From contig JAGWLO010000007.1 in the NCBI GenBank assembly GCA_028872015.1, positions 1 through 64,000 on the forward strand: 64,000 bases of DNA. Reading direction: 5' to 3'. Made by a program: the position numbers and the translations under genes. This DNA comes from Burkholderiales bacterium. Lineage in GTDB: Bacteria; Pseudomonadota; Gammaproteobacteria; Burkholderiales; Burkholderiaceae_C. The notes under the pieces were generated by a model. It searched no databases and had not been told where the DNA came from. It saw only the letters and a list, made by a program, of their open reading frames with translations. Below are positions 18,209-44,692 of the stretch, one piece after another. Within the stretch, counting starts at the first letter, position 1. Every line of letters starts with the position of its first letter.

Positions 18209-20798
<2,590 letters not shown>

Positions 20799-20831
20799 CC
20801 CGGTGCCGCAGCCGCCGGCCGGTCCCGCGCC

Positions 20832-21620
20832 ATGTGGCATGAGCTGCAGCTCTTCCTGATCGCGCTGCGCGCCGGCACGCGGCTGCCGCTGCCCGACTGG
20901 GCCGCCGCGCGGCCCGACCGGCGCGTGCTCAGCCGGCGCCACGACCCGGCGGTGGGCCTGGTCGTCGGGGCGTTCGCGGCCGGCGTGTTGCTGGCGGCGG
21001 GCCATGCCTGGCCGGCCGGCGTGGCGGTGCTGGCCGCGGTGGCGGCCTCGGCCTGGTTCACGCGCGGCCGCGACGAAGCGGGCCTGGCCCGCTGCTGCGA
21101 TGCCTGGGCCGGGGGCGCGGGGGTGCGCGGGCCGGGTGGCGGGGCCGCGCCGAACGGCACGAACAAGTCCAGCGCCTCGATCGGCCCGATCGGCCAGCTC
21201 GGTCCCATCGGGGCCACCGGCCTGGTGCTGGCGCTGGCGCTGCGCGCGGCCGCCGTGTACGGCCTGGCCACGCGCGACCTGGCGCTGACCCTGGCCGTGC
21301 TGCCGCTGGCGCAGGCCTGGCCCCGGGTGGCGGCCTTGCTGGCCGAGCGCTGGGCCGGCCCGGGCCGCGATACGGGCCGTGACACGGGCTGGGTGGTGGG
21401 CCTGATGTGGGCCGGCGTGGCGGCCAGTGGTGCGTCCTGGTCGCTCAGCCCGGCCCAGCTGGTGCTCTCGGCTGCGGCCGCCGCCGCCGTGGCCGGGGTG
21501 GCGGCCTGGACGCTGCGGCGCCGCTTCGGCGTGCTCGGCGAGGACGCGCTGGCCGCGCTGCGCCAGGGCACCGAGATCGCGGTGTGTCTCGCGCTGCTGG
21601 CGGCGGTCGGTCGCGGCTGA
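20832..21620 (+). CDS. CobS-like membrane protein with eroded active-site motifs
   Basis: A 262-residue, multi-helix inner-membrane protein. The ends match adenosylcobinamide-GDP ribazoletransferase (CobS): the start FLIALRAGTRLPLPDW resembles the CobS TR-(L/I)-PVP region, and the C-terminal RRRFGVLGEDALAALRQGTE resembles its RRLGG-GD-LGA-E segment. The CobS aspartate motif (DGLADTxDG) appears only as AGLARCCDAW, with two of three Asp changed to Ala and Arg. The following IM-D-RIG region is replaced by a repeat-encoded IGPIGQLGPIGATG stretch after a low-complexity insert. Catalysis as CobS is therefore doubtful: it may be a pseudoenzyme, a neofunctionalised relative or a decaying gene. It lies 33 bp after the cobalamin-binding-like gene. 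Confidence 0.65.
   Translation: MWHELQLFLIALRAGTRLPLPDWAAARPDRRVLSRRHDPAVGLVVGAFAAGVLLAAGHAWPAGVAVLAAVAASAWFTRGRDEAGLARCCDAWAGGAGVRGPGGGAAPNGTNKSSASIGPIGQLGPIGATGLVLALALRAAAVYGLATRDLALTLAVLPLAQAWPRVAALLAERWAGPGRDTGRDTGWVVGLMWAGVAASGASWSLSPAQLVLSAAAAAAVAGVAAWTLRRRFGVLGEDALAALRQGTEIAVCLALLAAVGRG
21179..21214. repeat. 9-bp degenerate repeat inside the CobS-like gene
   Basis: Four 9-mers (GATCGGCCC, GATCGGCCA, GCTCGGTCC, CATCGGGGC) encode an I-G-P/Q-type tripeptide repeat. They sit exactly where CobS proteins carry a conserved acidic motif, and a low-complexity Gly/Asn/Thr/Lys insert precedes them. Confidence 0.6.
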
Positions 21621-21732
21621 AGGCGATTGATCGCCGCGCGGCGGCGGTTCGTCGCAGCGCGCTCGCGCGCTGCCTGGGCGCTGACGATAGTCACTCCATC
21701 GAACCCCGCCACCGAACCCCCAGGAGCCCACC

Positions 21733-21930
21733 ATGTCGCAAGCCGCATCCCGCAACTTCCAGCCGCGCCTGCATCGCAGCGTGTCGCTCGGTCTCGCCGC
21801 CTTGCTGACGCTGGTCACGATGAGCAGCCTGAACCTGCTCGCCCAGCCCGATGCGTCGCAGCCCGAGCTGGCGCGAGCGGCGGGCAGCGCGGCCGTGGCG
21901 CAGGCCGCGCCGTCGGCGCCCCGCGGCTGA
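21733..21930 (+). CDS. Small exported or membrane-anchored hypothetical protein
   Basis: A 65-residue protein preceded by CAGGAG about 8 nt before the ATG. It has one hydrophobic segment (about 18-36, SLGLAALLTLVTMSSLNLLA) and an Ala/Pro-rich tail, consistent with a signal peptide or single membrane anchor. I recognise no family. It lies 112 bp after the CobS-like gene and 19 bp before another tiny membrane protein; both precede the cbb3 oxidase block. The good ribosome-binding site and hydrophobic pattern support a real gene. Confidence 0.55.
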   Translation: MSQAASRNFQPRLHRSVSLGLAALLTLVTMSSLNLLAQPDASQPELARAAGSAAVAQAAPSAPRG

Positions 21931-21949: not shown

Positions 21950-22156
21950 ATGCGCATCCTGCTGTGCCTGGTCGGCTGGTGCCTGCTGTGGGTGCTGTGC
22001 TGGCCGCTGGCCCTGATGGCGCTGATCGCGGCACCTGTTGTGTGGCTGCTGACGCTGCCCTTCAGGCTCGTCGGCATCGCCTTCGACGCCCTGTTCGCGC
22101 TGCTGCACGGGCTGCTCATGCTGCCCGCCCGGCTGCTGGGGGTGCGCCCGCGCTGA
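21950..22156 (+). CDS. Small two-helix membrane protein, hypothetical
   Basis: A 68-residue, highly hydrophobic protein: MRILLCLVGWCLLWVLCWPL opens a first membrane segment, and a second follows around 25-45 before an Arg-rich end (LLGVRPR). No family was recognised. The open frame extends 99 bases upstream, but that part overlaps the preceding small gene and lacks hydrophobic pattern, so ATG 21950 is preferred. It ends 10 bp before the FNR-type palindrome of ccoI. Confidence 0.5.
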   Translation: MRILLCLVGWCLLWVLCWPLALMALIAAPVVWLLTLPFRLVGIAFDALFALLHGLLMLPARLLGVRPR

Positions 22157-44219: not shown

Positions 44220-44692
44220 CGATGCCCCCCATGACTCTGCCGGGCCGCAGCCGAGGGCGCCGACGCTGCCGGCGTGCCGGTCATCGGCATACCTTGCATG
44301 CCGTGCATGCCCTTCATGTCGCCCATGCCGTGCATGCCCTTCATGTCGCCCATGCTGTGCATGCCTTTCATGTCGCCCATGTCCTTCATGTCCTTCATGT
44401 CGCCCATGCCCTTCATGCTCTTCATGGCTCCCATGCCCTGGGCGTCGGCGGGGGCCTTCGAGCCGCCCGTGTCCTGCATGTCGCCCATGCCGGCCATGCC
44501 GGCGGCGGCACTGTTCAAGGTCTTCCAGTCGCCGGCCTCGGCCGCGCGGTAGGGCTTGTAATCGGCAAAGGCCGACCGGTATTGCAAGGGCGGCACGGCG
44601 GCCTGCGCGTCGACCGGGCCTGCGTTGGTGCCTGGGGCGGCGGCGGCTTGCAGCGCAACGCCGCAGGCCAGCACGAGAGTGAGCTTTTTCAT
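44216..44692 (-). CDS. Periplasmic Met/His-repeat protein, putative copper-binding
   Basis: A 158-residue secreted protein: signal peptide 1-19 (ending LQAAAA), a conserved segment PLQYRSAFADYKPYRAAEAGDWKTLN (core FADYKPYR...GDW) seen in copper-operon proteins, and a repeat domain (about 65-140). That domain is built from GMGDMK, GMH and DMKDM units, then a His-rich end (RQSHGGHR). Dense Met with interspersed His is characteristic of periplasmic Cu(I) binding. The repeats arise from a 27-bp tandem DNA repeat. No family name is certain; the copper role is inferred from composition and its position between the DUF2946-like and TolC genes. Confidence 0.8.
   Translation of the reverse strand: MKKLTLVLACGVALQAAAAPGTNAGPVDAQAAVPPLQYRSAFADYKPYRAAEAGDWKTLNSAAAGMAGMGDMQDTGGSKAPADAQGMGAMKSMKGMGDMKDMKDMGDMKGMHSMGDMKGMHGMGDMKGMHGMQGMPMTGTPAASAPSAAARQSHGGHR
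44297..44431. repeat. Five 27-bp tandem repeats coding for the Met/His repeat domain
   Basis: Copies at 44297-44323 and 44324-44350 are identical. 44351-44377 differs at two positions, and 44378-44404 and 44405-44431 are more diverged. The 9-residue period keeps the reading frame. Identity of adjacent copies suggests recent duplication and possible length variation between strains. Confidence 0.9.

Follow-up and report, generated by a model that had tools for sequence, protein, structure and literature searches.

The gene at 20832..21620 (plus strand) of the window, by which we mean the whole 64,000-nucleotide stretch of DNA analyzed here, encodes a 262-amino-acid protein in an unbroken, full-length open reading frame. 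Judged from sequence comparisons, it is in our view quite probably a CobS-derived membrane pseudoenzyme that is kept by purifying selection. It lacks residues critical for CobS activity, its former catalytic loop is conserved in an altered form in a second species, and its host lacks cobT, a gene present alongside each intact cobS in the genus. The eroded protein has probably acquired a new function that is not enzymatic.

Ancestry of the Eroded CobS Protein

The Pfam model for CobS (PF02654) recognizes the protein with an E value of 4.6e-11 and 43.7 bits (cut-off 23.2). The NCBIfam CobS equivalog NF001277 aligns with residues 2-259 but yields 75.7 bits (cut-off 273); a match of this length and score marks the protein as a clear CobS relative that fails the functional cut-off. 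A preliminary description of this DNA had read the open reading frame as a real gene with CobS-like ends, and this reading holds, with homology to CobS extending over the full length in both databases. Besides this homology, the protein shares with CobS (PF02654; NF001277, TIGR00317) a membrane-type hydropathy, the N-terminal TRLP, the C-terminal region and a place after btuF, comparable to the btuF-cobT-cobS gene order of nine relatives. It differs from CobS in lacking the motifs HxDxxxDxxD, [IV]MxDSR and GxxGDxxG, in scoring far below the equivalog cut-offs and in lacking the cobT that accompanies intact cobS. A search for a canonical cobS elsewhere in the window genome (3.8 Mb, 147 contigs, listed as 100% complete) revealed none, the gene under study being the sole PF02654 gene there.

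Two further eroded copies are present in the genomes G096 and G085 of the same genus. The correlation of smoothed hydropathy between the eroded copies and an average over 11 intact CobS proteins is 0.84-0.89, compared with 0.94-0.98 among those 11, so that the eroded protein fits the CobS profile less well than intact copies do. An AlphaFold2 model of the eroded protein built from three alignment rows was too poor for use (mean pLDDT 46.6), and a sequence search for relatives among solved structures found none, the best hit (E 0.064) being unrelated.

Loss of the Catalytic Motifs

Our motif counts are based on an alignment of the eroded copies with the 26 intact CobS proteins recovered from the 81 surveyed genomes of this genus. 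By pattern count, HxDxxxDxxD in cytoplasmic loop 2, [IV]MxDSR after loop 2 and GxxGDxxG in loop 6 each occur in 26 of the 26 intact proteins and in none of the three eroded ones; HAK(A/S)KP, which is not invariant, occurs in 21 of 26 and 0 of 3, respectively. Alignment with intact CobS places the changed loop-2 motif of the window protein at residues 77-90 (21060..21101, plus strand), where it reads T-R-G-R-D-E-A-G-L-A-R-C-C-D in place of the T-G-A-F-H-E-D-G-L-A-D-T-C-D of G003, a relative with an intact copy. All 26 intact proteins of the genus have HEDG(L/F)AD(T/V)xD at the position at which the window protein carries RDEAGLARCCDAW, so that the loss of the DGLADTxDG motif, claimed in the preliminary description, is fully borne out. 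The HAK(A/S)KP region is shortened in the window protein (about residues 176-188; 21357..21395, plus strand; alignment and pattern count), and the GxxGDxxG remnant at residues 234-241 (21531..21554, plus strand) reads VLGEDALA, with the Asp retained and three Gly residues replaced. Across the 97 sites that are invariant in 11 closer intact CobS proteins, the window copy retains 56, the G096 copy 55 and the G085 copy 47.

The consequences of such replacements can be judged from mutagenesis of the Salmonella enzyme: according to the available text of PMC8092220, the D82A, D86A, D89A and D229A variants of CobS each abolish growth on cobinamide with or without dimethylbenzimidazole. By motif alignment, these four residues correspond to A83, R87, D90 and D238 of the window protein. 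The positions of D82 and D86 are replaced in all three eroded copies; since they are occupied by Ala and Arg in the window protein, it should not work as a CobS enzyme. The other two positions remain acidic in the window copy (D90, D238) and in G096 (E90, D238), and G085 is devoid of all four Asp residues.

At the former [IV]MxDSR site (residues 117-127; 21180..21212, plus strand) the window protein reads IGPIGQLGPIG, its IGPIGQ aligning in register, position for position, with the IMKDSR of intact CobS. This stretch is encoded by a weak period-9 repeat and is not conserved. A low-complexity insert of 13 residues relative to intact CobS (residues 97-109; 21120..21158, plus strand) sits just before it. 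The preliminary description had proposed a repeat-encoded insert that replaces this second motif: the loss of the motif stands, but the insert precedes the motif instead of replacing it, and the repeat is nothing special. With a TRF score of 40 and 3.8 copies, it is one of 14 period-9 rows scoring at least 40 in the window, and it is not conserved in the G096 relative. We therefore regard it as drifted linker and reject the repeat-encoded insert as a functional feature. The top-scoring period-9 row of the window belongs to tandem arrays at 44287-44426 (up to 14.4 copies, score 78).

An intact motif hidden in another frame was likewise considered and rejected. No CobS motif was found in the six frames of window positions 20701-21750, and the antisense and shifted frames differ between the window and G096 by 77 to 103 amino acids, compared with 62 in the coding frame; the other frames are thus less conserved than the coding one.

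Occurrence and Number of Origins

The G096 copy has 71-76% identity to the window gene, the same eroded loop (TRGRDEAGLARCCEAWA) and the same synteny: in both genomes, enolase, kdsA and pyrG (minus strand), the BtuF-like gene, the eroded gene, a P-type ATPase and cytochrome-oxidase genes are found, with gene names assigned by reading of the products. In a comparison of 3,741 bases, the G096 sequence shows no difference from the MAG contig JAGWMW010000017.1 (Burkholderiales bacterium REEB217). The eroded motif is thus conserved in a second species.

The third copy, that of G085, encodes 275 amino acids without interruption, directly follows a BtuF-like gene and carries RHELGLVRCFAG at the motif, and it is more diverged. 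All three eroded copies have T-R-x-R-x-E-x-G-L-x-R-C in common in the former catalytic loop. Three Arg residues (window positions 78, 80 and 87) and a Cys (position 88) set the three eroded copies apart from the 26 intact CobS proteins of the genus, all of which lack them there; in another genus, the intact CobS of L020 also has a Cys at position 88.

A single origin of the G085 copy and the window/G096 pair is favored by our sequence comparisons, with an independent erosion in G085 as a serious competitor to which we attach a somewhat lower probability than to common descent. In the latter case, cobS would have eroded twice, and the pseudoenzyme would have two known members, those of the window and G096. 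The pyrG tree speaks for two events, as it places G085 with G023, a genome with intact cobS, at 99/99; holding the three eroded genomes together in this tree costs 38.5 log units (AU p 0.078), G085 being flagged there for its odd base composition. The btuF tree does not join the three genomes either, with weak support, and G085 forms a long branch in the CobS tree. The CobS tree itself, however, unites the three copies at 100/99, and when trees are built apart, G085 and the window/G096 pair each attach nearest to G003, G007, G018 and G091. Furthermore, among 30 invariant sites changed in both G085 and the pair, 12 have acquired the same new residue, compared with 2.8 expected by permutation, although 22 of 86 sites share a new residue in the same comparison across 11 intact lineages.

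Further eroded copies were sought more widely. In 399 sampled genomes of the family, 31 matches besides the window were obtained at E 1e-15, with at most six candidates scored per genome. The motif was read in 11 of these 31: G007, which is intact, and ten loci, all ten with the canonical acidic motif and four of them with W for L. These four loci (L102, L103, L104 and L105), from other genera of the family, encode otherwise canonical CobS proteins with HEDGW instead of HEDGL. A scan of genome contigs returned L019 and L020, the latter with the acidic motif HLDGLADCCD, and a scan of viral contigs found no eroded CobS; both scans detect close relatives only. One limited literature search on CobS together with pseudoenzymes found nothing relevant.

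Cobalamin Pathway of the Host and Genomic Neighborhood

Within the genus, an intact cobS and a cobT scoring at least 370 bits are found in exactly the same 26 of the 81 genomes. The three genomes with an eroded copy possess neither, and in each of them the eroded gene directly follows btuF. A PF02654 match is absent at E 0.01 in 51 of the 81 genomes, and one more has a match below the cut-off only. G006 (PF02654 at 19.1 bits, below the cut-off) and G014 (33% over 69 residues) were dropped from the counts; neither gave a match with an intact CobS query. Match coordinates reveal the order btuF, cobT, cobS in nine of the 26 intact genomes (G003, G018, G091, G027, G007, G028, G031, G033 and G036); btuF without cobS is found in relatives such as G010 and G026.

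CobU occurs in 17 of the 81 genomes and true CbiB (at least 226 bits) in 14, and none of the three eroded genomes has either; their only CbiB-like protein is a paralog of roughly 90 bits, and a PF03186 match of some kind is present in 79 of the 81 genomes. These absences are not distinctive of the three genomes, for both proteins are also missing from 10 of the 26 that have an intact cobS. They are, moreover, soft in G096 and G085, which are 83% and 92% complete. Intact cobT and cobS without CobU or a high-scoring CbiB were seen in G003, G091, G033, G036, G083, G028, G031, G027, G093 and G101. The window genome has as its only CobT a CobT-like paralog of 266 bits, and BtuR (PF02572), searched for in this genome alone, gave no match there. 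Of seven B12-binding-domain matches in the window genome, five lie clearly above the cut-off (32.1 bits), another reaches 33.9 bits and the last falls short of the cut-off. The presence of B12-binding domains, combined with the absence of CobU, CobT, true CbiB and BtuR, suggests that the host probably uses B12 without assembling it.

A second CobT-like protein is encoded beside a threonine-deaminase-like gene at L144 9276-10343 (minus strand; G000:C121:149323-150303) and scores 266 bits with PF02277 and 235.5 bits with TIGR03160, whose cut-off is 319.3. A PF02277 match is present in 71 of the 81 genomes of the genus, 45 of which have no high-scoring cobT.

Directly upstream of the eroded gene, at 20004..20798 (plus strand), lies a gene for a protein of the Pfam family PF01497, to which BtuF-type substrate-binding proteins (PF01497, NF002894) belong; its omega relative to G096 is 0.068. 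It differs from these proteins in that it reaches 43.5 bits with the BtuF equivalog NF002894, whose cut-off is 234, and in that no signal peptide was seen by eye. Its earlier designation as cobalamin-binding-like is consequently supported as to the BtuF-type fold and not as to the equivalog cut-off. Downstream, two small open reading frames without a Pfam or NCBIfam match are neighbors and putative members of the unit, one of 65 amino acids (21733..21930, plus strand) and a hydrophobic one of 68 amino acids (21950..22156, plus strand). In the cobS-less genomes G079 and G082, a similar hydrophobic open reading frame follows btuF; in G085, one lies after the eroded copy. The Rfam threshold for a cobalamin riboswitch was not reached in the window, L019 or L145, and no promoter-like, terminator-like or Rfam match was found near the eroded gene. 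A Betaproteobacteria toxic small RNA (Rfam RF02278, 58.5 bits) was recorded at L144 12014-12077 (minus strand).

These surroundings make a corrinoid-related role of the eroded gene possible. What links the protein to corrinoids or BtuF in our analysis is adjacency and ancestry only, and a neofunctionalized membrane protein that has no corrinoid role and merely sits beside btuF is an alternative of appreciable, if below even, probability. With CobU, intact CobT, true CbiB and BtuR missing from the window genome, the host is not expected to produce the CobS substrates; this, together with the three Arg residues gained in the loop and the occurrence of btuF without cobS in relatives, fits such a role. 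It is opposed by the adjacency to btuF, which is kept in all three eroded genomes, and we have no positive evidence for another role.

Selection After the Loss of the Motifs

A pairwise codon model of the window and G096 genes yields an omega of 0.110 (dN 0.130, dS 1.19), and fixing omega at 1 is worse by 2dlnL 94.9; with dS at about 1.2 and third positions at about 95% GC, the size of this omega is rough. Seven other genes of the same pair have omega values of 0.026-0.090 (btuF 0.068, ccoI 0.090), so that, of all eight genes tested, the eroded one evolves fastest, with an amino-acid identity of 0.764 compared with 0.855-0.951. A 14-row codon tree with a topology fixed by hand was built from the three eroded copies and 11 of the 26 intact ones, using 245 of 296 columns. 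Its omega estimates are 0.116 for the window/G096 tips and 0.125 for the intact cobS branches; setting omega to 1 on these tips worsens the fit by 2dlnL 95.7, and the data do not reject a single shared omega (2dlnL 0.8). For the eroded gene of G085 the same tree gives an omega of 0.087, and an omega of 1 is worse by 2dlnL 39.7. Our data thus indicate purifying selection after the loss at a strength (omega 0.11-0.12) comparable to that on intact cobS, and the eroded gene has been kept in this way in at least two species.

Counts of individual differences point in the same direction. The window and G096 proteins differ at 62 amino acids, whereas 5000 random placements of an equal number of nucleotide changes gave a minimum of 81 and a mean of 98. 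By codon position, the differences number 30, 37 and 79 in the pairwise alignment and 38, 38 and 80 in the 29-row alignment; third positions hence make up about half of them (79 of 146; 80 of 156), a moderate excess. Constraint is unevenly distributed: the changed loop (residues 77-93, 17 codons) has four synonymous codon differences and one non-synonymous difference between the window and G096, and the linker (residues 95-124) has 14 non-synonymous differences in 17 aligned codons.

A decaying pseudogene that is heading for deletion, and whose frame is open only because stop codons are rare in GC-rich DNA, is very improbable in the light of these results. Such a gene would be in keeping with the eroded catalytic motifs, the freely evolving linker, its position as the fastest of eight genes and the many genomes of the genus that have no PF02654 match above the cut-off. 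The open frame in itself is weak evidence against decay, as 2009 of the 5000 random placements likewise produced no stop. But the low omega, amino-acid differences below those of all 5000 placements, the conserved changed loop and the absence of stops and frameshifts from all three genomes speak against it. Of the three readings that the preliminary description had offered, the pseudoenzyme and the repurposed membrane protein consequently gain from the conserved loop and the purifying selection, and the decaying gene loses; close relatives do carry the normal motifs, but the window copy is not decaying at random. That the protein is still an active transferase with altered chemistry or an altered substrate, as the acidic D90 and D238 kept in the window and E90 and D238 in G096 might suggest, is the least credible explanation, given that D82A or D86A alone abolishes CobS (PMC8092220, available text) and neither residue survives in any of the three copies, that [IV]MxDSR is gone from all three and that G085 has lost all four Asp residues.

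A Possible Role for the Probable CobS-Derived Pseudoenzyme

By sequence, the CobS-derived protein has lost residues critical for CobS function, its host is without the accompanying cobT, and selection has since maintained the gene, a conserved loop with Arg and Cys now standing in for the acidic catalytic loop and a free linker for the second motif. In a host that uses imported B12, the protein could serve the adjacent BtuF-like protein of the corrinoid-binding type as its partner or anchor in the membrane, without catalysis. We advance this proposal only tentatively; a corrinoid-independent function in the membrane has a similar probability. As a single role, that of a membrane partner nevertheless appears the likeliest, because CobS has been proposed, in the available text of PMC8749415, as the membrane anchor of a cobamide-assembly complex, and the BtuF-like gene adjoins the eroded one in all three genomes. 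With that anchor, the eroded protein would share the structural, non-catalytic side of CobS, which a dead copy could keep; it differs in that the pathway partners looked for here, CobU and intact CobT, have no match in the window genome. More speculative still is the idea of a new CobS-derived pseudoenzyme family, defined by T-R-x-R-x-E-x-G-L-x-R-C and with one origin in the genus, that, in B12 scavengers, might work with a cytosolic BtuF-like protein in handling or sensing a corrinoid or some other anionic ligand.

The reason for the membrane location of cobamide synthases is called unclear in the available texts of PMC8749415 and PMC8092220. A copy that is kept without the chemistry could help to tell the structural role of CobS apart from its catalysis and provides a natural test case. 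The eroded CobS also illustrates a stage in the loss of a pathway at which a single component may be kept on for another purpose.
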